From the NCBI GenBank assembly GCA_030148705.1, contig JASBSY010000014.1, forward strand, positions 62,001 to 126,000: a stretch of DNA of 64,000 nucleotides, in the 5' to 3' direction. Under the pieces are notes generated by a model. It was not told where the DNA came from, ran no database searches, and saw only the letters and a program-made list of their open reading frames with translations. The DNA comes from Pukyongia sp. (lineage in GTDB: Bacteria > Bacteroidota > Bacteroidia > Flavobacteriales > Flavobacteriaceae). Shown piece by piece: positions 1 to 15,487 of this stretch. Made by a program: the position numbers and the translations under genes. Position 1 is the first letter of the stretch. Each line of letters begins with the position of its first letter.

Positions 1-1110
1 GAATTGGACGAATCTAATATCGGCTTTAACACCCGAACCATCATCTTCGATTTCGAAGATCTGGACAACCCGCAATTTCATTTCGAATATTTCGGACCAA
101 CCCCGGCGATCGACCACAATGGTTACGTAAAAGGAAACAAGTATTACATTGCCAACTACCGCGCAGGGATGCGTGTTATCGATATTACAGATATCGAAAA
201 CGGCAATATAGTGGAAGAAGGATCATTCGACACCTATCCTACTAATAACAATACCAATTTCAGTGGTGCCTGGAATGTATACCCATATTTTGAAAGCGGT
301 AATATCGTGATCAGTGATATGAACAGAGGTTTCTTCCTGGTAAGAGCTCAGAACACCGACACTGTGAAGCCTACAGCAGTGTGCACGGATATTACCGTGG
401 CTCTAAATCCCGATGGGCAAGCGACCATAGAGGCTTCAGATCTGGATAACGGTTCCTTCGATAACAGCGGAACAGTATATTTTAATATTTGCGACGATAC
501 CTTCGACTGTAGTGACCTTGGAGCAAACAGTATACAACTGGAAGTGTACGATGCCTTTGGAAATAAGGATTATTGTACTGCCACCGTAACTGTAATAGAC
601 GATTTGGATCCTACGGTAAGTTGTCCCGCAAACAGCACAGCCGGGTACGATACCGGCGAGAATTATTACACAGTCCCGGATTATGTAGCCAACGGCGATG
701 TCACCGCCCAGGACAATTGCGCTTTAGGGCTCACTATAACCCAGGATCCTACACCCGGGACCCAGTTGACCATGGGAACCTATACCATCGAATTTGAAGC
801 TGAAGACGCCAGCGGAAACACAAATAGCTGCTCCTTCGAACTTACCGTGGTCGAGATACTTTCAACATCCGACCAGGAATTCGAGACAGGGCTTGTTTTA
901 TTCCCGAACCCGGTTTCAGAAACACTAAATATAGTTTCGCGTACGCTGCCAATAGAACGCATCGTGCTTACAGATATATTGGGGCAGACTATTTTCTCGG
1001 AAGAGTACGGCGCTACCGGAGAAGTAACGGTCAATATGGCGAACCTGGCAAAGGGAATTTACTTTGTTAATGTAAATGAAGCCGTCACAAAAAAAATAAT
1101 TAAAAACTAA
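1..1110 (+). CDS. Choice-of-anchor B (LVIVD-type) secreted protein with HYR/Ig-like insert and T9SS type A sorting domain, 5' partial
   Basis: The reading frame is open from the first base, and its first residues (ELDESNIGFNTRT) match the middle of the three full paralogues downstream, so the N-terminal half lies outside the window. Visible residues 1-115 are the end of the LVIVD-type propeller domain, with the conserved PAIDHNGYVKG and YRAGMRVIDITD segments. Residues about 120-285 form a cysteine-bearing Ig-like/HYR stretch that the other three copies lack. Residues about 290-368 are a type A sorting domain (LFPNPVSETLNI, AKGIYFVNV, terminal KKIIKN), which in this family directs export by T9SS and attachment to the cell surface. 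It is followed by a strong terminator, so it may be the last gene of an upstream unit. The binding role of the propeller is unknown. Confidence 0.85.
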   Translation, partial: ELDESNIGFNTRTIIFDFEDLDNPQFHFEYFGPTPAIDHNGYVKGNKYYIANYRAGMRVIDITDIENGNIVEEGSFDTYPTNNNTNFSGAWNVYPYFESGNIVISDMNRGFFLVRAQNTDTVKPTAVCTDITVALNPDGQATIEASDLDNGSFDNSGTVYFNICDDTFDCSDLGANSIQLEVYDAFGNKDYCTATVTVIDDLDPTVSCPANSTAGYDTGENYYTVPDYVANGDVTAQDNCALGLTITQDPTPGTQLTMGTYTIEFEAEDASGNTNSCSFELTVVEILSTSDQEFETGLVLFPNPVSETLNIVSRTLPIERIVLTDILGQTIFSEEYGATGEVTVNMANLAKGIYFVNVNEAVTKKIIKN

Positions 1111-1115
1111 TTCCG

Positions 1116-1150
1116 AAAAACGACCTCCAGGGGTCGTTTTTTGTTTGTTT
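1116..1150 (+). terminator. Rho-independent terminator after first LVIVD gene
   Basis: A perfect 10-bp stem (AAAAACGACC at 1116-1125 with GGTCGTTTTT at 1132-1141) encloses a 6-base loop and runs into a T-rich tail. It starts 5 bases after the stop codon. Confidence 0.85.
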
Positions 1151-1163
1151 TAAACACTTTACT

Positions 1164-2576
1164 ATGAAAAATTTATTACCGGTATGGTTTCTCTTGTTTT
1201 CTGTAGGCGTGTTTTCCCAAGTACCCTGCGTGAATGGAACAGCCGCCGGTTTCCCCTGCAACGGTTATGATCTTCAATCGCAGATACCACTGTCGACAAT
1301 GAGCTCCACCCGTGCAAACGACAGCTGGGGTTGGACCGATCCGCAAGACGGCAAGGAATACGCCATTGTATGCCTGATAGAAGGAACTGCCTTTATCGAT
1401 ATCTCCGATCCGGTGAACCCGATATATCTGGGTAAACTGCCTAGCCAGGGAGGTTCTAGCACCTGGAGAGATGCTAAAACCTACGATAATCACGTCTTTG
1501 TAGTAAGCGAAGATTCAGGCCATGGGATGCAGGTTTTCGATCTTACAAGACTTCGGAATGTCACCAACCCGCCGGAAACTTTTACAAACGATGCGCATTT
1601 TAGCGGTTTTGGCGGTGCCCACAACATTGTTATCAACGAAGAGACAGGCTTTGCCTACGCCGTGGGAACCTCATCTTTTAGCGGAGGCGCATATTTTGTC
1701 GATATTCAGGATCCTGTAAATCCCGTGGCAGCGGGAGGATATTCGGTCGACGGCTATACTCACGACGCCCAGGTAGTGATTTACAACGGACCCGATACCG
1801 ACTATAGCGGCAGGGAGATCATGGTGGCAAGCAATGAGAACGAATTGGTGATAGTTGACGTTACAGATAAAGGAAATCCTGTGGCCATTTCAGATGTTGC
1901 GTATCCCAACGTATCCTATACACACCAGGGATGGTTTTCGGAAGATCAGCGATACTTCCTGTTAGGTGATGAAACTGATGAGATCAATTTCGGCTTCGAC
2001 AGCAGGACCCTGATCATGGATCTTAGCGACCTTGACGATCCTCAGTACGATTTCAGTTATACCGGAATGACTCCGGCAACAGACCACAATGGCTATGTGA
2101 AGGGTGACAAATTCTATCTTTCCAACAATGCAGCGGGCTTAAGAGTGATGGATATTTCCGATCTTGAAAACGGCAATATGAGTGAGATAGGCTTTTTCGA
2201 TAGTTATGCCCCCGATGATCTTGCCGGTTTCAACGGAGCCTGGAGCGTGTATCCCTATTTCGACAGCGGAAATATCGTGATTAGTGACAGAACTTCCGGC
2301 TTTCTGCTGGTTAAAGAATCGGAAATCCTGGCCAACATCGACACCGTTAAACCTGAATTTGCCGTGTATCCGAATCCCATTTCAGATATGCTGTCTATTC
2401 AATCGGACAAGGGTAGCATAAACTCGATAAAGATTTACGACAGTCTCGGGAAACTGATTCATTCAGAAGAATTCGGGGATGAGCTAAGCGTTTCAACAGA
2501 CCTTACCTCCCTTTCCGAAGGAATCTATTTCCTTCAAATAAACGATACTGTAAACAAAAAAATTATTAAGATCTGA
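1164..2576 (+). CDS. Choice-of-anchor B (LVIVD-type) family protein, T9SS type A sorted
   Basis: This 470-residue secreted protein has a signal peptide (MKNLLPVWFLLFSVGVFSQ). The body carries the family repeats: FIDISDPVNPIYLGKLP, MQVFDLTRLRNV, FGGAHNIVINEETG, DGYTHDAQV, IVDVTDKGNP, YTHQGWF and TDHNGYVKGDKFYLSNNAAG. LVIVD repeats are expected to fold as a beta-propeller. The last 75 or so residues are a type A sorting domain (FAVYPNPISDMLSIQ, GIYFLQINDTVNKKIIKI). No HYR insert is present. It is the second of four tandem paralogues that look clearly similar throughout by eye. The ATG start is set by the signal peptide, and no Shine-Dalgarno is seen. The ligand is unknown; a metal site is possible because several histidines are invariant among the copies. 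Confidence 0.85.
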   Translation: MKNLLPVWFLLFSVGVFSQVPCVNGTAAGFPCNGYDLQSQIPLSTMSSTRANDSWGWTDPQDGKEYAIVCLIEGTAFIDISDPVNPIYLGKLPSQGGSSTWRDAKTYDNHVFVVSEDSGHGMQVFDLTRLRNVTNPPETFTNDAHFSGFGGAHNIVINEETGFAYAVGTSSFSGGAYFVDIQDPVNPVAAGGYSVDGYTHDAQVVIYNGPDTDYSGREIMVASNENELVIVDVTDKGNPVAISDVAYPNVSYTHQGWFSEDQRYFLLGDETDEINFGFDSRTLIMDLSDLDDPQYDFSYTGMTPATDHNGYVKGDKFYLSNNAAGLRVMDISDLENGNMSEIGFFDSYAPDDLAGFNGAWSVYPYFDSGNIVISDRTSGFLLVKESEILANIDTVKPEFAVYPNPISDMLSIQSDKGSINSIKIYDSLGKLIHSEEFGDELSVSTDLTSLSEGIYFLQINDTVNKKIIKI

Positions 2577-2591
2577 TATTTTGTAATTCGT

Positions 2592-2626
2592 TAGTGCCGT
2601 ATCCGACTACAAGTCCGGAGGCACTA
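2592..2626 (+). terminator. Hairpin between second and third LVIVD genes
   Basis: TAGTGCC (2592-2598) pairs with GGCACTA (2620-2626), and an inner TCCGAC / GTCCGGA pairing has one bulge. There is no T-tract after it, so it may be a weak terminator, an mRNA end-stabilising hairpin, or an operator for the promoter just downstream. Confidence 0.4.
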
Positions 2627-2648
2627 TAAATTAGACTGTTGCGTTTTA

Positions 2649-2677
2649 TTTGTTAGACATTATTATTTGTATTTTTG
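2649..2677 (+). promoter_or_regulatory. Bacteroidota-type promoter for the third and fourth LVIVD genes
   Basis: TTTG at 2649-2652 (-33 element) is separated by 17 bases from TATTTTTG at 2670-2677, a perfect TAnnTTTG -7 element. The next ATG is at 2697, giving a short leader. It probably drives the gene run from 2697 to 8845, in which gaps are 12-33 bases. Confidence 0.65.
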
Positions 2678-2696
2678 TAAAGCTTAAAAAATTTCT

Positions 2697-4109
2697 ATGA
2701 AAAAATTACTATTCTTATTCCTCGCTGCATTAGGAACAGCGGTTATGGCACAAACTCCATGTAATAACGGCCTTGCAGGTAACTATCCCTGCGAAGGTTT
2801 CGACCTGCTGTCTTCGTTCTCACTAGCCGAGCTGGGAGGCTCCTCCGGAAATGATTCATGGGGATGGACAGATCCCAACGACGGCAAAGAGTACGCTATT
2901 ACAGGGGTAGACAACGGAACCGTATTTATCGATATTACAGATCCGATTAATCCGGTAATATTGGGAAAACTTCCCGGACACAACAATTCTTCCAGTCTGT
3001 GGAGAGATGTAAAAGTTTACAACAATTACGCATTTATGGTAAGCGAGGCCGGCAGTCATGGTATACAGATCTTCGATCTTACCAGGCTGAGAAACGTCAC
3101 CAATCCACCCGAGACCTTTACCGAAGATGCCCACTACAGCGGCTTCGGCGGGGCACATAATATCGTGATCAATGAAGAATCCGGTTACGCCTATGGCGTA
3201 GGTGCAGGTAGCTATTCGGGCGGTGCACACTTTGTTAATATACAGGATCCGTTAAATCCCGTTGCAGCAGGGGGTTATGCCGGAAGCGGATACACTCACG
3301 ATGCCCAGGTGATTATTTACGACGGCCCCGATTCGGACTACACAGGAAGTGAAATCTATATTGGTTGCAATACCGATGAAATTGTGATCGTAGACGTTAC
3401 CGATAAAGGAAACCCTCAGTTGATTTCAACTATAGGATATTCGAATATAGGATATACCCACCAGGGATGGATCACGGAAGACCACACTTATTTTATCGCA
3501 GGTGATGAGTTCGATGAATCCAATGTGGGCTTTAACACCCGGTCGGTAGTATTCGACTTTACAGACCTGGACAATCCTCAGTTTCATTTTGAGTATTTTG
3601 GTCCTGAACCATCTATTGATCACAATGGCTACGTAAAAGGAGATAAGTTCTACCTGGCAAACTACTCGGCCGGAATGCGTGTTATCGATATCAGCGATAT
3701 TGCCAATGGTAATATGACCGAACTCGGCTACTTCGACACTCATCCGTCCAGTCAGTCTGTTAGTTACTCCGGGGCGTGGAATGTCTATCCGTTTTTCGAA
3801 AGTGGCAACATTATTGTGAGTAATATAGACGGTGGATTCTTTGTGCTAAGAGATTCGCAGCTGGGAGCAGGAACTGTGGATTCAACCGAATTTGCCGTAT
3901 ATCCCAATCCGGCCGATGAATATCTCAACATTCGCTCCGAAGAAACAGCTATTCACTCTATTGAAATCAGCAACACCCTTGGGCAGTTGGTGATAGCTCA
4001 GGAAGTTAATAACAGTAATAACGAACAAATAGATATTGCCGGACTAACTTCCGGGGTCTATTTTCTAAGAATCAATCACAATACCGTAAAACGGTTTGTG
4101 GTAAATTAA
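2697..4109 (+). CDS. Choice-of-anchor B (LVIVD-type) family protein, T9SS type A sorted
   Basis: This 470-residue protein has a signal peptide (MKKLLFLFLAALGTAVMAQ) and the same repeat set as its neighbours: VFIDITDPINPVILGKLPG, IQIFDLTRLRNV, DAHYSGFGGAHNIVINEE, GYTHDAQVIIYDGPDSDYTG, IVIVDVTDKGNP, YTHQGWI and SIDHNGYVKGDKFYLANYSAG. Residues about 400-470 are the type A sorting domain (FAVYPNPADEYLNI, SGVYFLRINHNTVKRFVVN). It has its own promoter at 2649-2677 and lies 19 bases before the next paralogue, so the two are likely cotranscribed. It is expected on the cell surface; its partner is unknown. Confidence 0.85.
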   Translation: MKKLLFLFLAALGTAVMAQTPCNNGLAGNYPCEGFDLLSSFSLAELGGSSGNDSWGWTDPNDGKEYAITGVDNGTVFIDITDPINPVILGKLPGHNNSSSLWRDVKVYNNYAFMVSEAGSHGIQIFDLTRLRNVTNPPETFTEDAHYSGFGGAHNIVINEESGYAYGVGAGSYSGGAHFVNIQDPLNPVAAGGYAGSGYTHDAQVIIYDGPDSDYTGSEIYIGCNTDEIVIVDVTDKGNPQLISTIGYSNIGYTHQGWITEDHTYFIAGDEFDESNVGFNTRSVVFDFTDLDNPQFHFEYFGPEPSIDHNGYVKGDKFYLANYSAGMRVIDISDIANGNMTELGYFDTHPSSQSVSYSGAWNVYPFFESGNIIVSNIDGGFFVLRDSQLGAGTVDSTEFAVYPNPADEYLNIRSEETAIHSIEISNTLGQLVIAQEVNNSNNEQIDIAGLTSGVYFLRINHNTVKRFVVN

Positions 4110-4128
4110 TCTCATAAACAATCAAAAA

Positions 4129-5535
4129 ATGAAAAAAATTTTATCTCTGGCCGCAGTCGCATTTTGCACAATGGCTGTCGCTCAAACTCCTTGTTCAGGT
4201 GGTTCTGCCGCCGGTTATCCATGTAGCGGATTCGATCTGCAATCTCACCTTTCTCTCGGGCAGCTTCAGGCCTCGGGAGGAAACGACTCCTGGGGTTGGG
4301 TAGATCCGGACGACGGAAAAGAATACGCCATGATGGGTGTAAACAACGGTACCGTGTTCATCGACATCTCAGACCCCGTGAACCCGGTTTATCTCGGTAA
4401 ATTACCCACCCATACTTCAAACAGCAGCTGGAGAGATATAAAGGTATACGACAATCACGCCTTTATCGTCAGTGAAGCGAATGGCCACGGTATGCAGGTA
4501 TTCGATCTTACCAGATTGCGAAATGTGAACAACCCGCCCGTAACGTTTAATAATGACGCACATTACAGTGGATTCGGGAGTGCGCATAACATTGCAATTA
4601 ATGAAGATACGGGTTATGCTTATGCTATTGGTACCAATAATTTCAACGGGGGACCGGAGTTCATCAATATTCAGAACCCACAGAACCCTGTTGGCGCCGG
4701 GGGATACAGCCTCGATGGATATACCCACGATGCCCAGATCGTTACTTATGATGGCCCGGACACAGACTATACGGGAAGAGAGATCTTTGTGGGTTCCAAT
4801 GAGAATGAAATCGTTATCGTAGATGTAACCGACAAAGGTTTTCCAACCCCAATTGCTGTGGTAGATTATTCAAATGTGGGCTATACGCACCAGGGATGGT
4901 TTACTGAAGACAAACGTTATTTTATCGTAGGTGATGAGCTGGATGAGTTTAGTGTTGGGTTCAACACACGTACCCTGATATTCGATTTCAGCGATCTGGA
5001 CAACCCCCAGTTCGATTTCGAATATTTTGGAGCTACACCTGCAACAGACCATAATGGCTATGTAGTGGGAGATAAATTCTATATGGCCAATTATGCGGCC
5101 GGGTTAAGAGTTTACGACCTGTCCGATCTCGCCAATGAGAATATATCTGAATACGGCTATTTCGATACCTTCCCGGGATCCAACAGCGCCGGTTTCGACG
5201 CCACCTGGAATGTATATCCTTTCTTTCCCAGCGGAAACATCGTGATAAGCGGGGATGAAGGGTTTACGGTAGTACGGGATCCTAATTTAGGCACGGGAGA
5301 CTTCGAAGGTACAGACTTCGCGATGTATCCCAACCCGGCTACAGATGTGCTTACTATTACAGCCAAGGACACTACTATTGAGGAAGTGGCTATTTATAAT
5401 GTACTCGGACAACGTGTGCTCGAGTTTCATTTTTCCAACAGCCCTTCAGAAAAAATCAATATATTTGAACTCAATTCAGGCGTTTATCTCGTTCAGATCA
5501 ATAAAAATACAAGCAAACGCCTGATCGTAAACTAA
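4129..5535 (+). CDS. Choice-of-anchor B (LVIVD-type) family protein, T9SS type A sorted
   Basis: This 468-residue protein is the fourth tandem paralogue. It has a signal peptide (MKKILSLAAVAFCTMAVAQ), LVIVD-type repeats (VFIDISDPVNPVYLGKLP, MQVFDLTRLRNV, DAHYSGFGSAHNIAINE, GYTHDAQIVTYDGPDTDY, IVIVDVTDKGFP, YTHQGWF, TDHNGYVVGDKFYMANYAAG) and a type A sorting domain (FAMYPNPATDVLTI, SGVYLVQINKNTSKRLIVN). Only 12 bases separate its stop from the next gene, a lipoprotein with a different propeller-like repeat, which ties the LVIVD genes to the MbnP/peroxidase genes downstream. The function is not established. Confidence 0.85.
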   Translation: MKKILSLAAVAFCTMAVAQTPCSGGSAAGYPCSGFDLQSHLSLGQLQASGGNDSWGWVDPDDGKEYAMMGVNNGTVFIDISDPVNPVYLGKLPTHTSNSSWRDIKVYDNHAFIVSEANGHGMQVFDLTRLRNVNNPPVTFNNDAHYSGFGSAHNIAINEDTGYAYAIGTNNFNGGPEFINIQNPQNPVGAGGYSLDGYTHDAQIVTYDGPDTDYTGREIFVGSNENEIVIVDVTDKGFPTPIAVVDYSNVGYTHQGWFTEDKRYFIVGDELDEFSVGFNTRTLIFDFSDLDNPQFDFEYFGATPATDHNGYVVGDKFYMANYAAGLRVYDLSDLANENISEYGYFDTFPGSNSAGFDATWNVYPFFPSGNIVISGDEGFTVVRDPNLGTGDFEGTDFAMYPNPATDVLTITAKDTTIEEVAIYNVLGQRVLEFHFSNSPSEKINIFELNSGVYLVQINKNTSKRLIVN

Positions 5536-5547
5536 AAGAACTTACTT

Positions 5548-6927
5548 ATGCTATCGAAAATGAAATTAGTCCCTGCAGTGGCGATGATCGCCACCCTGGC
5601 ATTCTATTCCTGTGGTAAGGACGATTCCAGTCCACCACCACAAACGGACGATTCTACCGATGATTCCCCCATGCCCATCAATTTCGAGGGAGTTATCGAC
5701 TATGTGAAAACCTACGGTGGCAGCGAGGAGGATGAAGCTGTGGGAGTGGTTCAGGCCAATGACGGGAATTACATCATTCTTGGATCAACTTCCAGTATCG
5801 ACGGCGATATCACCGATAAAACCACCACCGATTCAGATTACTGGGTATTGAAAGTCGATCCCCAGGGAGCAATCTTATGGAGCAAGACCTATGGCGGAAG
5901 TGCCACCGATAAAGCCACCGGGATAACCAAGACCACCGATGGCGGTTATATCCTTTCAGGACACAGCAGAAGTAACGATGGCGACGTTGGAGGCAACGAA
6001 GGTTTTCACGATTACTGGCTGGTAAAGATCGATAGCCAGGGTGGAATCCAGTGGGAAACAAATTTTGGTTTTTCAGGCAGTGATCAGGCGTATAAAGTAA
6101 TTCAAACAGCCGATGGCGGATATTTTGCTACAGGATTCCTGGATGTAACGGCCAGTGGCGGCCAGGGGAACGACGGCCGAAATCCCGAACACGGGGTTGG
6201 TGAGTATTGGGGAATTAAAATGAACGCCAACGGCGAAAAGATCTGGAGACGTTATTTCGGAGGAACCAATAATGACCGTAGTTACGACGTTGTTCAGACA
6301 AGCGACGGCGGATTTCTTATGATAGGTGCAAGCGAGAGTAGCGATTTCGACATAACAGACGATAAAGGAAGTTACGATTACTGGGTGGTAAAAGTCAGTG
6401 CCGGTGGCGACAAGGTATGGACAAAATCATACGGCGGATCCGAGATTGACGTGGCTTATAGTGTAACCAGGGCTTCGGATGGAAATTATATTATGGTTGG
6501 CGATAGCCGCAGTTCAGATAAGGATGTTTCGGGTGCTCTGGGCAACGCCGATATGTGGATAGTGAAATTCAATCCTGCGAACGGGAACATTATCTGGGAG
6601 AAGAACCTGGGGGGATCTCAGTTCGAATCCGGAAGAAGCATTCAGCGACTTCCCAATGGGACTTATCTTATTTCAGGATCAACGCGCAGTTCGAACGGCG
6701 ATGTTTCCAATAACCTGGGCGAAAATGATGCCTGGGTGGTTATAATAGATGAAGAAGGAGACCTGCAGTATCAGAAAACCATAGGTGGTACCAGCCTCGA
6801 TTTTTCAGAAGATGCCATTCAGACCACGGACAATAAAGTGCTTTTGGTTGGAAATACCGAAAGTGATGATATAGACATCCCAATGAACAGGGGGATCAAG
6901 GATTTGCTGTTCATCAAGATCAAATAA
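5548..6927 (+). CDS. Lipoprotein with seven propeller-like repeats
   Basis: The N-terminus is a lipoprotein signal (LATLAFYSC, then acidic and proline residues), so the protein is probably anchored in the outer membrane. A second ATG at 5560 (MKLVPAVAMIATL) gives a more usual signal length and may be the true start. The rest is about seven repeats of 55-60 residues, each built like W-x-K-T-YGGS-x-x-D-x-A-x-x-V-x-QT-x-DGGY-x-x-x-G-x-S-x-S-x-DGD ... DYWVVK. Seven blades would close a beta-propeller. The regular SxDGD loops are acidic and could bind calcium. It is in a run with LVIVD genes before it and MbnP after it. The exact family is not recognised. Confidence 0.7.
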   Translation: MLSKMKLVPAVAMIATLAFYSCGKDDSSPPPQTDDSTDDSPMPINFEGVIDYVKTYGGSEEDEAVGVVQANDGNYIILGSTSSIDGDITDKTTTDSDYWVLKVDPQGAILWSKTYGGSATDKATGITKTTDGGYILSGHSRSNDGDVGGNEGFHDYWLVKIDSQGGIQWETNFGFSGSDQAYKVIQTADGGYFATGFLDVTASGGQGNDGRNPEHGVGEYWGIKMNANGEKIWRRYFGGTNNDRSYDVVQTSDGGFLMIGASESSDFDITDDKGSYDYWVVKVSAGGDKVWTKSYGGSEIDVAYSVTRASDGNYIMVGDSRSSDKDVSGALGNADMWIVKFNPANGNIIWEKNLGGSQFESGRSIQRLPNGTYLISGSTRSSNGDVSNNLGENDAWVVIIDEEGDLQYQKTIGGTSLDFSEDAIQTTDNKVLLVGNTESDDIDIPMNRGIKDLLFIKIK

Positions 6928-6960
6928 CTGAAATAATATAACTTAATACAATAAAAAAAA

Positions 6961-7758
6961 ATGAAAAAGATTGCCCTGCTTCTTGCTGTTGCAACTGCTG
7001 TGGTTGCCTGCAAAAACGATGACAATGGGACTCCAATTCCCGCCGATACCAGTGTGGATTTTACTTTTTCACACAATTGGGACGGCGATGAGATTGAAAA
7101 TTCAGATTTCGATGTCATCCAATACACGAATGCCAACGGGGAAGAGCTCAGTATCTCAAAATTGGTTTACCTCATTTCCGATGTAACTTTCGAGAGTGTT
7201 ACTACGGGGGAAGTCTACGATGCAGGTGATTATAACCTGGTGAATGTTCGCCAGGGAACCAATCTTAACTTTACGCCCGATATCGAAATTCCGGAGGGCG
7301 AATACCTGGTTTCGTTTACTTTCGGTTTCGACGATGAAGACAATATCGACGGTGCCTACCTCGATCTGAATTCTGCCGATGGAGGCTGGAATGTACCTAT
7401 GATGCTGGGAGGAGGCTATCACTATATGCGACTGGAGGGGAAATTTATCGACAATACATCCACAGAGACCAATTATGCATATCACACCATACGGGCTGCG
7501 GACCCGAGTACGACCCCGGTAACGCTGCAGGATACTTCTTTCGAAGTCGACCTTGGACAGATTGCAATCGGCAGCGGCACGAATATTGAAGTTAAAATGA
7601 ACCTGGCACAGTGGTTCGAGGATCCAAATCTCTGGGACCTGAACGTGCTCAACCAAATGCTAATGCCCAACTTCGATGCCCAGATCCTGATGCACCAGAA
7701 TGGTTCAACCTACCAAAATTCAGAAGGTGTATTCAGTCTTGGCGCTGTAACTCAATAA
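6961..7758 (+). CDS. MbnP-family lipoprotein (putative copper-binding)
   Basis: This 265-residue protein has a lipoprotein signal (MKKIALLLAVATAVVAC, Cys17). Family marks are the early FTFSHNWDG (His38, Trp40), the VYLISDVTFES strand, VSFTFGFDDEDN, then GGW-NVPMMLGGGYHYMRLEG (Trp143, His154) and AYHTIRA (His175). In MbnP of methanotrophs and the related CorA, a histidine site binds copper, and a tryptophan is oxidised to kynurenine by a partner di-heme enzyme. Here a di-heme peroxidase gene starts 13 bases downstream, the same pairing. No methanobactin genes are in view, so the role is likely general copper handling. Metal binding and tryptophan modification are inferred. Confidence 0.75.
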   Translation: MKKIALLLAVATAVVACKNDDNGTPIPADTSVDFTFSHNWDGDEIENSDFDVIQYTNANGEELSISKLVYLISDVTFESVTTGEVYDAGDYNLVNVRQGTNLNFTPDIEIPEGEYLVSFTFGFDDEDNIDGAYLDLNSADGGWNVPMMLGGGYHYMRLEGKFIDNTSTETNYAYHTIRAADPSTTPVTLQDTSFEVDLGQIAIGSGTNIEVKMNLAQWFEDPNLWDLNVLNQMLMPNFDAQILMHQNGSTYQNSEGVFSLGAVTQ

Positions 7759-7771
7759 AACAAAATAGATA

Positions 7772-8845
7772 ATGAAAAGGTGTTTAATATATTTTAGTCT
7801 CGGCTTTGTCCTGCTGTCCTGTTCTACGGATGACGGCAAGGTAGACGGCTATACTGCAACACCTTTGGAACTGCAAATACCACAAATTTTTGAAGACAGG
7901 ATACTTCCCCCGGTAATCCCGGCAGACAATCCGCAAACCGTGGAAGGTGTTGCGCTTGGAAGAAAACTGTTTTTCGATAAAAGGTTATCGGCAGACAATA
8001 CATTGGCATGTGCCGGATGTCACAGTCCGGCAAATGCTTTTTCCGATGCCCGGCAATTTAGTGTTGGAATCGATGGCATCGAAGGAACTCGTAACTCCAT
8101 GCCGCTGTTCAACCTGGCCTGGAATTACAACGAATTGTTCTTTTGGGACGGGCGTGCAAACTCCATCGAAAATCAGGCCCTCGAACCGGTTGTCGATCCC
8201 ATAGAAATGCACAATACCTGGAGTGAAGCCGCGAACAGCCTGCAAAGCGACAGCGAATACCCTGAACTCTTTCAACAGGCATTTGGAACCTCAACCATCG
8301 ATTCGGTACTCGTTACCAAAGCCATCGCCCAATTTCTAAGAACACTTATCTCGGCCAATTCGAAATTCGACCGCTACCTGATGGGCACAGCCGAACTCAG
8401 CCCTGAAGAACAAAACGGACTAAATGTATTTATGGATGAGAATCGCGGCGATTGTTTTCACTGTCACGGCAATCCTAACAATCCATTGTGGACCGACAAT
8501 ATCTTTCACAACAACGGCCTGGATGAATCTTTTTCAGACCGCGGACGTGGTGCTGTAACAGGCGATCCTAGAGAATTTGGGCAATTTAAATCGCCCAGCC
8601 TTCGGAACCTGGAATTTACTGCACCCTATATGCACGATGGTCGGTTTGAAACCATAGAAGAAGTAATCGATCACTACAGCGAAGGCCTGGTGTATTCGGA
8701 AACCATCGATCCGTTGATGAAAAAAGTCGCTGAAGGCGGAGTAGGGCTTTCAGAACAGGACAAAGCCGATCTCAAGGCGTTTTTACTCACCCTCTCCGAC
8801 CCCTCCTTTGTCAATAACCCCGACTTTCAGGATCCAAATCAATAA
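7772..8845 (+). CDS. Di-heme cytochrome c peroxidase (MbnH/MauG/CcP superfamily)
   Basis: This 357-residue protein has a lipobox (VLLSC, Cys17) and two c-type heme sites, CAGCH at residues 80-84 and CFHCH at 228-232. Trp125 in FFWDGRA matches the inter-heme tryptophan of the family. The C-terminal domain has PYMHDGRF, where Met287 stands at the position of the distal ligand of the high-potential heme in classical peroxidases; MauG has tyrosine there. So it may be an ordinary H2O2 peroxidase or an MbnH-like enzyme that oxidises tryptophan of the MbnP protein next door; the gene pairing favours the latter. It is probably anchored facing the periplasm. Confidence 0.85.
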   Translation: MKRCLIYFSLGFVLLSCSTDDGKVDGYTATPLELQIPQIFEDRILPPVIPADNPQTVEGVALGRKLFFDKRLSADNTLACAGCHSPANAFSDARQFSVGIDGIEGTRNSMPLFNLAWNYNELFFWDGRANSIENQALEPVVDPIEMHNTWSEAANSLQSDSEYPELFQQAFGTSTIDSVLVTKAIAQFLRTLISANSKFDRYLMGTAELSPEEQNGLNVFMDENRGDCFHCHGNPNNPLWTDNIFHNNGLDESFSDRGRGAVTGDPREFGQFKSPSLRNLEFTAPYMHDGRFETIEEVIDHYSEGLVYSETIDPLMKKVAEGGVGLSEQDKADLKAFLLTLSDPSFVNNPDFQDPNQ

Positions 8846-8998: not shown

Positions 8999-9328
8999 AT
9001 GATCAAGGTTAGTGAGAATGCAAAATCCAGAATATCCCAGCTGATGGCCGAAGAGGGCTTCGCTGTGGCAAGCGACTTTGTGCGCGTAGGTGTTAAGAGC
9101 GGAGGTTGCTCCGGTCTTTCGTATGAACTCACTTTTGATAAAGAACTGGGTGAGAACGACAAGATGTTCGAAGACAATCCGGTGAAGATCGTGGTAGATA
9201 AAAAGAGCTTTCTTTACCTGGTGGGAACCACGCTGGAATACAGTGGGGGTCTGAACGGGAAGGGCTTTGTTTTTAACAACCCCAATGCCAATCGCACCTG
9301 CGGTTGCGGAGAGAGCTTTTCATTATAA
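8999..9328 (+). CDS. sufA: A-type iron-sulfur carrier (HesB/IscA/SufA family)
   Basis: This 109-residue protein has the three family cysteines: Cys37 in KSGGCSGLSY, and Cys101 and Cys103 in the C-terminal TCGCGESF. Such proteins hold an iron-sulfur cluster in transit and pass it to target enzymes. It is the first gene of the SUF operon, 19 bases before sufB, as in many flavobacteria. The ATG start at 8999 gives the usual family length. Confidence 0.9.
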   Translation: MIKVSENAKSRISQLMAEEGFAVASDFVRVGVKSGGCSGLSYELTFDKELGENDKMFEDNPVKIVVDKKSFLYLVGTTLEYSGGLNGKGFVFNNPNANRTCGCGESFSL

Positions 9329-9347
9329 TAATTGTTGAAACTGAATC

Positions 9348-10796
9348 ATGGGAAAATTTACGGAAGATGATCTGAAGAAGGAACTGGAAACCAAAGAATA
9401 CGAATATGGTTTCTACACCGATATTGAATCGGATACGTTCCCTATTGGTCTGAATGAAGAGGTAGTGCGTGCAATCTCCATGAAAAAGGAGGAGCCGGAA
9501 TGGATGACCCAATGGCGGCTTGAAGCCTTTGAGCACTGGAAACAGATGGTGGAACCGGAATGGGCGAATGTTAACTATGTTAAACCCGATTTCCAGGCAA
9601 TATCGTATTATTCAGCACCTTCAAAAAAGCCAAAATACAACAGTATAGACGAGGTTGATCCCGAATTGCTGGATACCTTTAACAGATTGGGAATATCACT
9701 GGAGGAGCAGAAGAAACTGGCAGGAGTAGCTGTCGATATCGTAATGGACTCGGTGTCGGTTGCAACTACCTTCAAATCTACCCTGGCTGAAAAGGGTATC
9801 ATCTTTTGCTCTATTTCTGAAGCCATTAAAGAACACCCCGAATTAGTGAAGAAATACATCGGATCTGTGGTTCCGCAACGCGATAACTTCTATGCCGCAC
9901 TGAACAGTGCTGTTTTCAGCGACGGCTCCTTCTGCTATATTCCTAAAGGCGTTCGGTGCCCGATGGAATTGTCAACGTATTTCCGAATTAACCAGGCAGG
10001 TACCGGGCAGTTTGAAAGAACCCTGGTGATTGCCGATGAAGATAGTTATGTAAGTTATCTCGAAGGATGTACGGCTCCGTCCCGAGACGAGAATCAGCTG
10101 CATGCCGCAGTTGTGGAGCTCATAGCACTCGATGGAGCAGAGATAAAATACTCCACAGTCCAGAACTGGTATCCCGGTGGTAAGGACGGAAAAGGCGGGG
10201 TATACAACTTTGTTACCAAACGCGGATTGTGCGAAAAGAACGCAAAGATATCGTGGACACAGGTGGAAACCGGAAGTGCCATCACCTGGAAGTATCCAAG
10301 CTGCATCCTGAAAGGGGATAATTCTATTGGTGAATTCTATTCGATAGCGGTAACCAATAACTTCCAGCAGGCCGATACGGGAACTAAGATGATACACCTG
10401 GGGAAAAACACCCGGAGTACGATTATTTCGAAAGGTATTTCTGCGGGAAAATCACAAAACAGTTATCGCGGCCTGGTAAAAATAGGCCCGCGGGCCAAGA
10501 ACGCACGAAACTTTTCACAGTGCGATTCTCTGCTAATGGGAAATGAATGTGGCGCCCATACCTTTCCGTATATCGAGGTATCGAATAAAACGGCTCAGAT
10601 AGAACACGAGGCAACGACCAGTAAGATCGGGGAAGACCAGATCTTTTACTGCAATCAGCGCGGAATAGATACTGAAAAGGCCATTGCCCTTATCGTGAAT
10701 GGATTTAGTAAGGAAGTATTGAATAAACTCCCCATGGAATTTGCCGTTGAAGCGCAAAAACTCCTGGAAATAAGCCTGGAAGGCTCGGTTGGATAA
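9348..10796 (+). CDS. sufB: SufB, scaffold subunit of the SufBCD complex
   Basis: This 482-residue cytoplasmic protein is full length for SufB. The core beta-helix motifs are clear: [76 protein letters not shown] and [18 protein letters not shown]. Cys392 in NFSQCDSLL falls where E. coli SufB has the cluster-assembly cysteine 405, judged by distance from the C-terminus. SufB with SufC and SufD builds new Fe-S clusters from sulfur supplied by SufS/SufE. The next gene is a small lipoprotein rather than sufC, which is unusual compared with enterobacterial operons. Confidence 0.97.
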
Positions 10797-10816
10797 TTAA
10801 GTATTAAACAGTTGAT

Positions 10817-11227
10817 ATGAAAAATCTCCTTTACCTTTTATTAAGTGCCCTTTTATTGGTAGCGTGTAAGAATTCTGAAACGACCAATAAGGAGGAAACA
10901 TCTGAACTTTCGGAAGAAGAAATCGTGGAATTGCCTATCTATCGCGGCGAATTCATCTATACCGCTGAAGCCTCTGTCCTTAAGGTGGGCGAAGTGGTTT
11001 ATGCCGTAAAAATGGATTCCATGGCCCAGGTTTTGGCAGACAAGGTAGCCCCGGTTAAGAAAGATGATTTCGATATGGTACCTGTAGTAATCCAGGGCAC
11101 GGTGGGACCAAATCCGATTTTAAGCGAAGGAAAAGAAGGATGGAAAGAGATGATCGCGGTAAAACGTATAATAACAATAAGTCAGTCGCCGGCGGAACCC
11201 GACGTAAAAATTGAAGAAAAGAATTAA
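10817..11227 (+). CDS. Small lipoprotein of unknown function inside the suf operon
   Basis: This 136-residue protein begins with a lipoprotein signal (MKNLLYLLLSALLLVAC, Cys17), then an acidic linker, then a compact domain from about residue 42 (LPIYRGEFIYTAEASVLKVG, YAVKMDSMAQVLADKVAP, MVPVVIQGTVGPNP, AVKRIITI). It sits 20 bases after sufB and its stop is 1 base before the sufC ATG, so it is translated within the operon. No catalytic motif is evident and I do not recognise the family. An envelope lipoprotein between sufB and sufC is odd because Fe-S assembly is cytoplasmic. Confidence 0.8.
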   Translation: MKNLLYLLLSALLLVACKNSETTNKEETSELSEEEIVELPIYRGEFIYTAEASVLKVGEVVYAVKMDSMAQVLADKVAPVKKDDFDMVPVVIQGTVGPNPILSEGKEGWKEMIAVKRIITISQSPAEPDVKIEEKN

Positions 11228-11228
11228 T

Positions 11229-11981
11229 ATGCTGAAGATAAAAGATTTACACGCAAGTGTTGAAGATAAAGATATTTTAAACGGAGTATCATTAAACGTG
11301 AACGCCGGAGAAGTACACGCCATTATGGGACCCAACGGTTCCGGAAAGAGTACTCTTGCCGCGGTGATAGCCGGGAAGGAAGAGTTTGTAGTGGAGAAAG
11401 GGGAGATATTTCTGGACGATCAGGATATTTCGGAAATGGACCCCGAAGAGCGTGCTCATAAAGGAATTTTTCTGTCGTTTCAGTATCCCGTGGAAATTCC
11501 GGGAGTTACCGTTACCAACTTTATAAAAACAGCCATCAACGAGACCAGAAAAGCCAAGGGTCTGGAAGAGATGCCCGCCTCCGATATGCTCAAAAAGATC
11601 AAGGCCAAGGCAGATATGCTGGACATCGATCGCAAGTTTTTGTCCCGATCGCTGAATGAAGGTTTTTCAGGAGGAGAGAAGAAGCGTAACGAGATCTTCC
11701 AGATGGCAATGATGGAGCCTAAACTGGCCATCCTGGACGAAACCGATTCGGGTCTGGATATCGATGCCTTGAAGGTCGTGGCAAACGGAGTAAACAAGTT
11801 CAGAAACAAGGACAATGCCGTGATAGTGATTACCCACTACCAGCGTTTACTGGATTATATAGTCCCCGACTTTGTTCATGTCCTCATGGATGGAAAAATC
11901 GTAAAATCGGGCGACAAGGAATTAGCTTATAAGCTGGAAGAAAAAGGATACGACTGGATCAAGGAAGAAGTGAAGGCCTAA
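11229..11981 (+). CDS. sufC: SufC, ATPase subunit of the SufBCD complex
   Basis: This 250-residue ABC-type ATPase starts at ATG 11229 (MLKIKDLHASVEDKDIL), like SufC elsewhere. An upstream in-frame ATG at 11211 would add six residues (MKKRIN) and overlap the lipoprotein gene, so I reject it. Motifs are Walker A GPNGSGKST, signature FSGGEKKRNEIFQMA, Walker B LAILDETDSGLDIDAL and the switch ITHYQRLL. It powers conformational change of SufBD during cluster assembly. It has no membrane segments, as expected for this soluble relative of ABC transporters. Confidence 0.97.
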   Translation: MLKIKDLHASVEDKDILNGVSLNVNAGEVHAIMGPNGSGKSTLAAVIAGKEEFVVEKGEIFLDDQDISEMDPEERAHKGIFLSFQYPVEIPGVTVTNFIKTAINETRKAKGLEEMPASDMLKKIKAKADMLDIDRKFLSRSLNEGFSGGEKKRNEIFQMAMMEPKLAILDETDSGLDIDALKVVANGVNKFRNKDNAVIVITHYQRLLDYIVPDFVHVLMDGKIVKSGDKELAYKLEEKGYDWIKEEVKA

Positions 11982-12001
11982 ATTGAATTGAAGGAAAAGT
12001 T

Positions 12002-13315
12002 ATGAGCTTAAAAGACAAATTATTATCCTCATATATCGCATTCGAAGATCACCTCGAAGAAGACTCCCCTATTCACGACATTAGGAATGAGGCTATAAAG
12101 GTATTCGAGGCGGAAGGTTTTCCCACTAAAAAACTCGAAGCCTGGAAGTATACTTCCCTGAATTCCCTGCTAAAAGAAAATTACAGCATTTTCCCAAAAC
12201 AGGACCACAGCCTTGAATTCAAACAAGTAAAGAAGTACTTCCTGCATGATGTGGACACCTATAAGGTAGTTTTTGTAGATGGGGTTTATAGTTCTTTCCT
12301 TTCTGAAACCACCCACGACAAGATCGATGTATGCCTCTTATCGGCCGCGTTGAATAAACCAAAGTACAAACCGGTAATCGAGGCCTATTTTAACAAGGCC
12401 GCCAAGCAGGATAGCTTATCCTCTCTGAATACAGCTTTTGCGAAAGAAGGTGCCTACGTCTTTATTCCCAACCACAAGGAAGTTGAAAAACCCATAGAGA
12501 TCATCAACTTTTCCACGGGAAATGAAGCAGCGATCATGCTTCAGCCGCGAAATCTTATCGTAGTTGGTGAAAACTCGCATGTGCAGATCATCGAACGCCA
12601 TCAAAGCCTTTCAGGAAATGCGGTATTTACCAATTCGGTAACCGAGATCTTTGCCGAAAAACGGGCCTATGTGGATTACTACAAGATACAGAACGACAAT
12701 ACCAACGCTTCCCTGATCGACAATACCAATATCTGGCAGGAACAGGAAAGCAATTGCAGGGTACATACCTTCTCCTTTGGCGGGAAACTAACCCGGAACA
12801 ACTTAAACTTCTATCAAAAAGGAGAGCGCTGCGACTCTACCCTGAAAGGAATAACCATACTGGAAGACAAGCAGCATGTGGACCACAACACCCTGGTGCA
12901 TCATATCGAACCAAACTGCGAGAGTCACCAGGATTACAAAGGTATCTTCGGGGATGCTTCCACCGGCGTATTCAACGGTAAGGTAGTTGTTGAAAAAGAA
13001 GCTCAAAAAACCGATGCATTTCAGCAGAACAACAACATCCTCATCCACGATAAGGCTACGATTAATGCCAAACCCCAGCTTGAGATCTTTGCAGACGATG
13101 TAAAATGTTCGCACGGGTGTACCATAGGGCAGCTGGATGAAGAAGCTCTGTTTTATATGCGTTCCCGCGGAATTGCCAAAAAAGAAGCCAGGGCCTTGTT
13201 GATGTATGCCTTTGCAAACAATGTTTTGGAAAGCGTTAAGATCCCTGAATTGAAAGTTCGCATCAACAAGCTAATCGCCAATAAAATTGGTGTGCGCCTT
13301 GGGTTTGAACTCTAA
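12002..13315 (+). CDS. sufD: SufD, SufBCD complex subunit
   Basis: This 437-residue SufB paralogue has an alpha-helical N-terminal part with EAWKYTSLNSLL (residues about 43-54) and a C-terminal beta-helix. The signature ADDVKCSHGCTIGQLDEE (Cys369, His371) corresponds to the E. coli SufD Cys358-x-His360 pair at the SufB-SufD interface where the cluster forms. It is followed by SRGI and a helical end. It lies 20 bases after sufC and 20 before sufS, consistent with a single transcript. Confidence 0.96.
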   Translation: MSLKDKLLSSYIAFEDHLEEDSPIHDIRNEAIKVFEAEGFPTKKLEAWKYTSLNSLLKENYSIFPKQDHSLEFKQVKKYFLHDVDTYKVVFVDGVYSSFLSETTHDKIDVCLLSAALNKPKYKPVIEAYFNKAAKQDSLSSLNTAFAKEGAYVFIPNHKEVEKPIEIINFSTGNEAAIMLQPRNLIVVGENSHVQIIERHQSLSGNAVFTNSVTEIFAEKRAYVDYYKIQNDNTNASLIDNTNIWQEQESNCRVHTFSFGGKLTRNNLNFYQKGERCDSTLKGITILEDKQHVDHNTLVHHIEPNCESHQDYKGIFGDASTGVFNGKVVVEKEAQKTDAFQQNNNILIHDKATINAKPQLEIFADDVKCSHGCTIGQLDEEALFYMRSRGIAKKEARALLMYAFANNVLESVKIPELKVRINKLIANKIGVRLGFEL

Positions 13316-13335
13316 TAACCACTGAAAAAGTACAA

Positions 13336-14553
13336 ATGGCCTTCAATGTTTCGGATATTCGAAAAGATTTTCCCATACTTCAGAGGGAAGTTAATGGGAA
13401 GCCACTTGTTTATCTCGATAACGCCGCCACAACTCAGAAACCTCGGCAGGTAATCAACAGCATAGTCGACTATTATTCGGGTTACAACGCAAATATTCAC
13501 CGAGGGGTACACACGCTTTCACAGGAAGCGACAGATGCCTATGAGGCTGCTCGGGGAATAATTCAGCAGCATTTCAATGTGGAAAAACCTTCGGAAGTGA
13601 TCTTTACTTCCGGAACTACGCACAGCATCAACCTGGTGGCAAATGGTTTCGAATCCATCCTACAGACCGGAGATGAAATAGTGGTTTCCGCACTGGAACA
13701 CCATTCGAACATAGTCCCTTGGCAAATGCTTTGTGAACGTACAGGCGCCATCCTGAAAGTAATCCCGATGAATGAAGAAGGAGAGTTGGTGCTTCCGGAA
13801 TTCAAAAATATACTATCAGCCCGCACCAAACTGGTTTTTGTAAATCATATTTCCAATGCCCTGGGGACGATAAACCCCATAGAAGAGATTATTGCGATGG
13901 CGCATGAAAAAGGAGCGGCCGTGCTTATAGACGGAGCTCAGGCCTGTTGCCATCTAAAACCCGATCTGCAAAAACTGGATGTGGATTTCTATACCACTTC
14001 CGCACACAAGATGTGTGGTCCTACCGGAGTTGGGATTTTGTACGGAAAGGAAGCCTGGTTGCAGAAATTACCGCCATACCAGGGAGGAGGAGAAATGATT
14101 TCGGAAGTCACTTTCGAAAAGACAACCTATGCAGAGCTTCCCCATAAATTCGAAGCAGGAACTCCAAACATTGCAGGAGGGATCGCCTTTGGAGCTGCCA
14201 TAGACTATCTGAACGCTATAGGCTTCGAACAGATTGAAAAACATGAAAATGAGCTTCTGTTCTATGCCACCAAAGAGCTGCTGAAGATCGATGGCTTGAG
14301 GATATACGGTACGGCGGCCAGGAAGACATCGGTAATCTCCTTTAACCTTTCGGGTATCCATCCGTATGATGTGGGCACCATTCTCGACAAAATGGGTATA
14401 GCCGTAAGAACCGGCCACCATTGCGCACAGCCCATTATGGATTATTATAAAATTCCGGGTACGGTAAGGGCTTCGTTTGCCTTCTACAATACCCTGGAAG
14501 AAGTAAACCGCCTGGTAGATGGTGTAAAAAAAGCTAAACTCATGCTGAGTTAA
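13336..14553 (+). CDS. sufS: SufS, group II cysteine desulfurase
   Basis: This 405-residue PLP enzyme converts cysteine to alanine and holds the released sulfur as a persulfide. Visible motifs are VYLDNAATTQKP, EHHSNIVPWQ, the PLP lysine in TSAHKMCGPTGVG (about residue 225) and the catalytic Cys363 in RTGHHCAQP. The short active-site region fits group II enzymes, which need SufE to accept sulfur, and sufE is two genes downstream. Confidence 0.96.
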   Translation: MAFNVSDIRKDFPILQREVNGKPLVYLDNAATTQKPRQVINSIVDYYSGYNANIHRGVHTLSQEATDAYEAARGIIQQHFNVEKPSEVIFTSGTTHSINLVANGFESILQTGDEIVVSALEHHSNIVPWQMLCERTGAILKVIPMNEEGELVLPEFKNILSARTKLVFVNHISNALGTINPIEEIIAMAHEKGAAVLIDGAQACCHLKPDLQKLDVDFYTTSAHKMCGPTGVGILYGKEAWLQKLPPYQGGGEMISEVTFEKTTYAELPHKFEAGTPNIAGGIAFGAAIDYLNAIGFEQIEKHENELLFYATKELLKIDGLRIYGTAARKTSVISFNLSGIHPYDVGTILDKMGIAVRTGHHCAQPIMDYYKIPGTVRASFAFYNTLEEVNRLVDGVKKAKLMLS

Positions 14554-14627
14554 GTTAACATACCTTTAAAAAAAGAAGCAAAGTAATTATGGTATCTTCG
14601 ATTACAGAACCATTTAACTCAAAAATT

Positions 14628-15053
14628 ATGAGAACAATAATCGCATTATGTACCATGGCTATATTTTTTATAAGTTGTGATGAAACAAAAAAAGTAATCG
14701 ATGTGGCCGGCAATGTGCAGCTATCTGGAAATTATACCATTACAAGTATTGGTGATAAGAAGGTGTCTGATAATGCCCCAACTATCTCCTTTGCTGCCTT
14801 AGACAAGACTGTTCGTGGTAATACAGGTTGCAATAGTTTCTTCGGAAATTATTCTATCGATCTGTACGCTTTGACCTTCTCGGATATAGCATCAACGGAG
14901 ATGGCCTGTGATGAGCCCATAATGACAAATGAAAATATGTTCCTGGCGGCTTTGCGGAATACCGGATCTTATGGGGTACAGGAAAATGTATTAACCCTGT
15001 ATTCAAAAACCGACCGCTCGGTGCTGCTAACTGCGTATAAGCAGAAAAATTAA
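14628..15053 (+). CDS. META-domain lipoprotein
   Basis: I place the start at ATG 14628, giving 141 residues with a lipoprotein signal (MRTIIALCTMAIFFISC). An in-frame ATG at 14589 would put 13 polar residues before the signal. The domain follows the META/HslJ pattern: LSGNYTITSIGDKKV, PTISFAALDKTVRGNTGCN with FFGNYSID, and FSDIASTEMACDEPIM. META proteins are small envelope proteins linked elsewhere to heat-shock or stress tolerance. It lies between sufS and sufE; a TATCTTCG box at 14593-14600, one base off the -7 consensus, suggests it can also be transcribed alone. Confidence 0.8.
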   Translation: MRTIIALCTMAIFFISCDETKKVIDVAGNVQLSGNYTITSIGDKKVSDNAPTISFAALDKTVRGNTGCNSFFGNYSIDLYALTFSDIASTEMACDEPIMTNENMFLAALRNTGSYGVQENVLTLYSKTDRSVLLTAYKQKN

Positions 15054-15059
15054 GACCTA

Positions 15060-15485: not shown

Positions 15486-15487
15486 CT

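Follow-up and report, generated by a model that had tools for sequence, protein, structure and literature searches.

LVIVD propeller genes and a variant MbnP–MbnH pair form a conserved gene string in Flavobacteriaceae, possibly a cell-surface metalloprotein operon

The closest described system to the locus treated here is the MbnP–MbnH pair (GenProp0940, families TIGR04052 and TIGR04039, structures 7l6g and 6e1c), which, according to PMC3621798, the only paper treating the pair among the matches listed, is conserved well beyond methanobactin producers. The locus opens a stretch of 64,000 nucleotides from Pukyongia sp. (source genome G000, G000:C2:62001-126000; hereafter the window), in which LVIVD-type propeller genes, an SBBP lipoprotein gene and a pair of this kind follow one another. 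We report that LVIVD, SBBP, MbnP and MbnH genes stand together as a single string, always in the same slot, in 52 of 149 Flavobacteriaceae genera sampled. Our tentative reading, which we hold to be possible rather than probable, is that of a conserved Flavobacteriaceae cell-surface metalloprotein operon whose metal-binding propellers are served by MbnP and MbnH, with a role for copper that we infer. The MbnP–MbnH pairs described here come with a constant partner that can be tested in marine bacteria available in culture. The genes of the string, as identified from open reading frames (ORFs), family models and tails typical of the type 9 secretion system (T9SS), are:

1-1110, + strand: LVIVD/TIGR04312 propeller paralogue 1, 3' part (HYR domain, T9SS tail)
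1164-2576, + strand: LVIVD/TIGR04312 propeller paralogue 2 (ORF, family models, T9SS tail)
2697-4109, + strand: LVIVD/TIGR04312 propeller paralogue 3 (ORF, family models, T9SS tail)
4129-5535, + strand: LVIVD/TIGR04312 propeller paralogue 4 (family models, T9SS tail, structure model with a predicted local distance difference test score, pLDDT, of 90.7)
5548-6927, + strand: SBBP (delta-60-like) lipoprotein with seven repeats (ORF, repeats counted by eye in the translation)
6961-7758, + strand: MbnP-family lipoprotein (PF20243), GGGYH subtype (Pfam, fold, motif)
7772-8845, + strand: MbnH-type di-heme enzyme lipoprotein with two CxxCH motifs (ORF, family models, PDB match, tree)

The succession of four adjacent choice-of-anchor B paralogues, a seven-repeat lipoprotein, an MbnP and a di-heme enzyme with gaps of 12–33 bases, which an earlier note on this DNA had described, was confirmed by ORFs and models; from 4109 onward the gaps measure 19, 12, 33 and 13 bases. 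Paralogue 1 is truncated by the window edge, the whole protein having 638 amino acids and a start 807 bases upstream (L001:11194-13110). The array is preceded by thiL on the opposite strand, and MbnH is followed by an iscA-type gene, sufB and other suf genes.

The described pair and that of the window share adjacency, folds and families, as well as the two CxxCH motifs, a tyrosine at the 6e1c position and an invariant MbnP histidine aligned with 7l6g. In contrast to the described pair, the window MbnH scores under the TIGR04039 cut-off, the window MbnP has no listed TIGR04052 match, a WxVPxxLGGGYH loop replaces WxW..GY, the lipoprotein N-termini are acidic, and the partner is LVIVD-SBBP instead of methanobactin genes. 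The pair is thus of a known kind in variant form, and for its LVIVD partner no description was found in the literature searched. No published account of a link between LVIVD and MbnP/MbnH was found there either, most subscription papers lying outside the search; the term ‘choice-of-anchor B’ gave no literature match, and among LVIVD papers also mentioning copper none dealt with such a link as far as title or start of abstract tell.

For the propellers, further systems offer comparison. The SBP56 methanethiol oxidase operon (mtoX-SCO1/senC-mauG) resembles the string in that, according to PMC5739008, four conserved histidines are proposed as copper ligands and copper-chaperone and MauG-type genes adjoin, which makes it a precedent for a histidine-rich copper protein next to a copper chaperone and MauG; it differs in protein family, in having SCO1 where MbnP stands here, and in setting, which here is apparently the cell surface. 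Sb-PTE of Sphingobium TCM1 (5hrm/5ioj) is the closest solved structure to LVIVD by Foldseek among the matches listed. It is unlike LVIVD in sequence (15–18% identity) and is a binuclear-metal enzyme acting on phosphotriesters, its structure paper, by title, describing a seven-bladed propeller that holds a binuclear metal centre. LVIVD repeat surface proteins share the repeat and the cell-surface location, and in the accessible part of PMC2447325 neither a function nor a metal site or partner gene is given for them. BtuG, finally, is a surface-exposed Bacteroidota propeller lipoprotein (PMC6143338, accessible part), and 8ptf is among the listed fold matches; BtuG, however, captures vitamin B12 together with a transport locus, and no such transporter was seen here.

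Conservation of the string was assessed in 149 Flavobacteriaceae genomes, one per genus, of which 77 carry PF20243 and 78 carry TIGR04312 above cut-off. The earlier note had proposed a gene-neighbourhood search within 10 kb across Bacteroidota and had named a lack of conserved co-occurrence as a refutation. Its proposal withstands this test within the family, where co-occurrence is conserved: 52 of 87 MbnP matches lie within this distance of an LVIVD gene, in 52 genomes; in the 19 loci examined outside the family, as detailed below, co-occurrence is absent. In all 52 linked loci LVIVD stands upstream of MbnP on the same strand, its nearest copy 1.4–2.5 kb away, and by these uniform placements chance co-location was rejected. 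Counted from the LVIVD side, 79 of 128 matches and 52 of 78 genomes are linked (128 of 135 TIGR04312 rows were kept and seven sub-cut-off rows dropped). Gene order was checked in 51 loci, the window and 50 of the 51 other linked loci; the operon of G108, split over two contigs, entered the linkage count and was left out of this check. The order LVIVD-SBBP-MbnP-MbnH was called in 50 of the 51, and in L070 the MbnP frame, missed by the ORF picker, was found in place afterwards; in L113 an LVIVD frame is missing from the called ORFs. The slot reads thiL, then LVIVD-SBBP-MbnP-MbnH, then iscA-sufB. All 50 fetched loci have sufB after the string, and 45 also have a called iscA-type frame there; thiL stands ahead of the array in 45 of 50, the other five stretches beginning inside the array. 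Ulvibacter litoralis, Aequorivita aquimaris, Dokdonia pacifica, Mesonia mobilis, Winogradskyella echinorum and Aquimarina sediminis show the same order. The proposal of one conserved surface unit is upheld by this fixed string and order across linked loci.

All window LVIVD proteins score above the TIGR04312 (choice-of-anchor B) cut-off of 100 bits, with 184.6 for the partial paralogue 1 and 544, 556.8 and 553.5 for the others; the model also gives sub-cut-off matches in two control genomes. PF08309 was tried as a genome probe and abandoned for TIGR04312, as it gave no match in G000, where three single proteins pass its cut-off. The model of paralogue 4 has strands that read as seven four-stranded blades, and together with the sequences it shows the LVIVD protein as a seven-bladed propeller in which four blades in succession each carry one invariant histidine at an identical place in the repeat; invariant aspartate and glutamate residues are present too. 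The histidine codons of paralogue 4 are:

4585-5052, + strand: span of the four invariant histidine codons, one per blade in blades 3–6, a predicted metal site
4585-4587, + strand: H153
4726-4728, + strand: H200
4888-4890, + strand: H254
5050-5052, + strand: H308

These four histidines are invariant in 70 of 70 LVIVD proteins of linked loci and are kept in 29, 28, 29 and 29 of 29 wider TIGR04312 members, respectively. They fall into one column of a blind blade alignment, in the consecutive blades 3–6, and DSSP places each at the start of a strand, which was taken as the innermost of its blade. As the blind alignment shifted W55 by one column and set blades 2 and 7 wrongly, we restrict the claim to the four histidines and blades 3–6. 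Further invariant residues include W55-G-W57, W101-R-D, H153-N, H200-D, H254-Q, D269-E, D272-E, D307-H-N and W360, and they are near-invariant in the wider members. Invariant histidines at the propeller hub suggest a metal or catalytic site.

The nearest solved relative of the LVIVD protein in both sequence and fold is the propeller phosphotriesterase Sb-PTE. It is the Foldseek top match to the LVIVD model among the matches listed (E 7.5e-11), and VIA superimposes the two over 331 residues (Z 30.6, 18% identity). A profile of the wide TIGR04312 members reaches Sb-PTE with E 2.9e-07 over the whole sequence, single stretches being weak, and Sb-PTE is the only PDB propeller under E 0.01 with the LVIVD profile. 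In the profile alignment the histidine of the LVIVD AHN motif stands opposite His 258 and 389 of Sb-PTE (5ioj count), which we take to be metal ligands. We know of no MbnP/MbnH partner for Sb-PTE. SBP56, presumably a propeller as well, did not appear (2ECE) among the 50 matches listed by Foldseek and the 50 by VIA, and absence from these does not amount to exclusion. Should the LVIVD propellers turn out to be metal enzymes, a family present in 113 of the 345 Bacteroidota genomes sampled would gain its first function.

Tandem LVIVD copies occur in 17 of 52 linked genomes and in 0 of 26 unlinked ones (Fisher p 0.0004, uncorrected for kinship). In G133 a large LVIVD expansion was seen, with ten TIGR04312 matches on five contigs, one of them in an 873-amino-acid open frame. 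A fifth LVIVD gene of G000 lies at a contig end (L145, G000:C6:116841-125652), preceded by three tandem paralogous proteins of 268–285 amino acids. About 1.1 kb before the window, between thiL and paralogue 1, a decayed LVIVD remnant with four TAA stops was found (G000:C2:60855-60971), from which the array may once have been longer.

The family assignment of MbnP and MbnH made in the earlier note was sustained by PF20243, by fold and by the match to 6e1c. The window MbnP scores 93.6 bits with PF20243 (cut-off 27), and its model (pLDDT 92.1) matches 7l6g with E 6.7e-07 and Z 16.4 over 220 residues, the only fold match with Z of at least 8; a single-sequence phmmer search of the PDB found no MbnP, which profile and fold searches did. 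TIGR04052, the kynurenine-copper type of MbnP, gave no listed match at E≤0.1. Two sites of the protein matter here:

7387-7428, + strand: MbnP residues 143–156 (WNVPMMLGGGYHYM), a remodelled loop where most MbnPs carry WxWxxGY
7483-7485, + strand: codon of the invariant MbnP His175, which aligns with the VHVGS histidine of Methylosinus (M.) trichosporium MbnP (7l6g)

Just before GY the window MbnP carries WNVPMMLGGGYH instead of WxW, the loop pattern of the GGGYH subtype being WxVPxxLGGGYH. Among the non-GGGYH MbnP matches, 74 of 80 have WxW before G[YFT] (some genomes counted twice). GGGYH is present in 47 of the 50 called operon MbnPs, and the remaining three and L070 have the WxW form. WxWxxGY was found in 0 of the 47; four residues upstream of the usual WxW place these proteins carry WxVP (34/47), WxWP (8/47) or FxVP (5/47), so that 42 have Trp and 5 have Phe at the residue aligned as first tryptophan; two places on, Val-Pro stands in 39 and Trp-Pro in 8. 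The MbnP biochemistry of Manesis and co-workers in PNAS in 2021 is said to have shown that the first tryptophan of WxW becomes kynurenine. Because the WxW..GY motif is missing from its usual place, a kynurenine-copper site is not to be assumed from the sequence of the GGGYH subtype, and the remodelled MbnP raises the question whether copper binding needs kynurenine at all.

As a DNA pattern, GGGYH[YF]M occurs in seven of the 345 phylum genomes, four of them Flavobacteriaceae, all at MbnP matches, and three of one other family. G000, G109 and G233 carry it within the operon; two of the three from the other family carry it in L206 and L207 (G161 and G180), where a GGGYH-type MbnP and an MbnH stand with no LVIVD nearby. 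In the quick tree no MbnPs stand closer to the operon type than these two, though the tree carries a warning of long branches at this point.

These features bear on the version proposed in the earlier note, copper capture or sensing by way of a kynurenine copper site that MbnH creates in MbnP, with LVIVD as the outermost capture layer. The confirmed families and folds agree with it, as do a kynurenine in the copper site of MopE, the copper-repressible CorA on the cell surface, and nutrient-capturing surface propellers such as BtuG (PMC6143338; structure title 8ptf). The kynurenine chemistry it assumed, however, cannot be taken for granted in a subtype in which WxW is missing at the usual place and the nearby tryptophan can be phenylalanine. 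Moreover, no TonB-dependent receptor or copper transporter was present among seven upstream proteins scanned, whose sole transporter is of the branched-chain amino acid type and on the opposite strand, and no such receptor, copper transporter or sensor among the scanned neighbours on both sides. We consider this version improbable.

The window di-heme enzyme scores 194.5 bits with PF03150 and 262.5 bits with TIGR04039, under the cut-off of 362.85, which was exceeded in 0 of the 149 Flavobacteriaceae genomes. Its nearest PDB entry is 6e1c (E 2.5e-56; entry name ‘Di-heme enzyme’), which we take to be MbnH. Both CxxCH motifs are invariant in all 51 operon MbnH proteins, as is the tyrosine encoded at:

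8675-8677, + strand: MbnH Tyr302 codon; Tyr in 6e1c, Met in two cytochrome c peroxidases

The two peroxidases, 1iqc and 3o5c, have Met where Tyr302 aligns, and 6e1c has Tyr; the position is presumably that of the distal heme ligand. As Tyr302 replaces the methionine of cytochrome c peroxidases, an oxidation of the MauG/MbnH kind appears more likely than plain peroxide removal. The target of such an oxidation might be LVIVD itself: MbnH would oxidise a tryptophan of the WGW motif and so build a protein-derived cofactor, the role of MauG in methylamine dehydrogenase. W55 and W57 are invariant in 95 of 95 LVIVD proteins (70 with the pair, 25 without), MbnH is retained where the MbnP tryptophan is phenylalanine, and methanethiol oxidase, with a tryptophan tryptophylquinone (TTQ) suggested in PMC5739008, offers a precedent. 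The motif, however, is equally invariant in pair-less loci and thus more likely structural, and we regard this alternative as very improbable.

In the phylum sample of 345 genomes, TIGR04312 (E≤1e-30) is found in 113 and PF20243 in 89, and 22 genomes outside Flavobacteriaceae carry both families. From 17 of these, 19 MbnP loci were checked up to 7 kb to each side (G191, G272, G280, G346 and G358 excluded, G180 and G318 entering with one of two MbnP matches each, L203 and L212 ending short of 7 kb at contig ends). All 19 have an MbnH-type match. Linkage across Bacteroidota was dropped as an explanation, not being found in these loci and genomes, and the LVIVD-MbnP linkage is a trait of one family in the sample taken.

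Within the family, 27 LVIVD stretches without the pair were available, from 26 genomes and the second LVIVD place in G000; SBBP is present in 22 of them, thiL in 23 and sufB in 22. In the SBBP tree a branch with 98% support separates the 22 pair-less loci from the 51 with-pair loci. The MbnP tree, a quick tree of 118 sequences from 130 matches (five duplicate loci dropped), and the MbnH tree, which holds all 51 operon rows including the window and 70 others (six duplicate loci dropped), each split the operon members into one group of 47 rows and another, apart from it, of 4, and in each tree well-supported branches require two changes; quick and FastTree methods were used, and the trees are to be read accordingly. 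The smaller pair group comprises G081, G074, G102 and G087, has the WxW..GY form and groups with family MbnPs found elsewhere. Because two separately rooted pairs took the same slot, an exchange of the pair is suggested by the trees, which points to selection for function and not to inheritance alone. In G075 and G147 LVIVD is kept and SBBP, MbnP and MbnH are all missing; in the LVIVD tree G075 clusters at 98% with a relative that has the full operon, and G147 stands among operon-bearing rows, so SBBP, MbnP and MbnH may go together.

Several findings weigh against our reading of the string as a single metalloprotein operon. In none of the 19 non-family loci examined does LVIVD stand beside MbnP. 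Within the family, 22 loci have LVIVD-SBBP but no MbnP/MbnH, and the invariant set, including the four histidines, is identical in LVIVD proteins with (70) and without (25) the pair; the propeller therefore does not always need the pair, and a pair-dependent residue difference was rejected on the same grounds, His95 and His145 being commoner with the pair (kinship uncontrolled). According to the SBBP tree the presence of the pair is a single gain or loss, and the 52 genera are not independent events; 52 separate conservation events were thus rejected in favour of one event plus one pair exchange. The LVIVD tree is confused by paralogues, with seven changes for the with-pair label. The TM-score of Sb-PTE to the LVIVD model is only 0.54, WD40 propellers tie with it on Z, and to our knowledge Sb-PTE is not a copper enzyme. 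On the side of the heme enzyme, TIGR04039 at E≤1e-40 also matches the E. coli control and is unspecific at that level, so that the MbnH assignment rests on position and tree.

Much of this would be expected under the main rival explanation, in which LVIVD-SBBP is a self-standing surface unit, a manganese, zinc or calcium hydrolase like Sb-PTE or a binding propeller, and MbnP-MbnH is a separate copper neighbour that settled beside the suf operon. The pair-less loci, the unchanged LVIVD residues and the absent linkage in the non-family loci fit this explanation; 49 of 128 family LVIVD matches are not near MbnP, and the closest solved relative is a hydrolase. It accounts less well for a pair that is present at all 51 loci on one side of the SBBP tree, that was swapped for a separately rooted one in the same slot and that is tightly set between genes in most loci. 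We judge it somewhat unlikely. The pair-less loci with their same invariant residues, together with the upstream proteins scanned, also speak against LVIVD as an outermost copper-capture layer.

In the metalloprotein operon that we favour, the LVIVD propeller would bind metal at its hub and act as an enzyme or metal carrier. MbnH, a MauG-like enzyme by family, would oxidise an aromatic residue of MbnP or prepare its metal site, and MbnP would hold copper at the surface and supply or guard it for the surface propellers. The LVIVD propellers would be the metal-dependent working parts; copies in tandem were found solely in linked genomes. Both copper and the direction of the MbnP–LVIVD relationship are what we infer. 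A more far-reaching form is doubtful: TIGR04312 propellers might be secreted metalloenzymes of a new class, with a four-histidine hub, finished or loaded outside the cell by a surface MbnP–MbnH whose metal site is rebuilt (GGGYH for WxW), that is, an extracellular maturation by a MauG-like heme enzyme.

Export signals bear on the surface location proposed here. T9SS export of LVIVD, as the earlier note had it, holds for the window, where a type A tail is present on four of four LVIVD proteins, and does not extend to linked loci at large, where a crude test on 74 LVIVD frames found a T9SS-like tail in 25 and a lipobox in 35; judged from these sequences, T9SS anchoring is not general. The window SBBP, which scores under the cut-offs of its nearest models, has the N-terminus CGKDDS, and this fits the surface-export signal of Bacteroidota lipoproteins, given as C-X-K-(D/E)2-X in PMC5080379. 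The MbnP (CKNDDN) and MbnH (CSTDDG) of the window are likewise acidic after the lipid cysteine. In linked loci an acidic pair at +1 to +5 of the lipobox cysteine was counted in 36 of 51 SBBP, 36 of 50 MbnP and 20 of 51 MbnH proteins (raw counts with no background rate). By these acidic residues, the three lipoproteins of the window may lie outside the cell.

Two candidate transcription signals lie within the array:

2649-2677, + strand: match to the Bacteroidota-type promoter TTTG-N17-TATTTTTG, just 5' of the ATG of paralogue 3 (2697)
1114-1143, + strand: terminator-like hairpin of 13 pairs, 3' of paralogue 1, weak alone

The promoter pattern matches 5 times in the 64 kb where chance would give 2.1; 5 of 100 shuffles reached that count of 5, which is weak alone, and terminator-like hairpins were found at 8 sites against 7.9 expected, not above chance. 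The promoter match before 2697 and the gaps of 12–33 bases suggest a single transcript over 2697-8845, possibly starting at paralogue 3.

Downstream of the string an ordinary suf operon follows:

8999-15814: iscA-type gene, sufB, sufC, sufD, sufS, a SufE/CsdE-like gene and a SUF-associated gene

Two small genes of this region are without family match (10817-11227 and 14589-15053). The first, between sufB and sufC, is lipoprotein-like and has no Pfam match at E≤1e-5. In the fetched stretches a gene of one cluster was called in 33 of 77 and a gene of another in 10 of 77, mostly after sufB.

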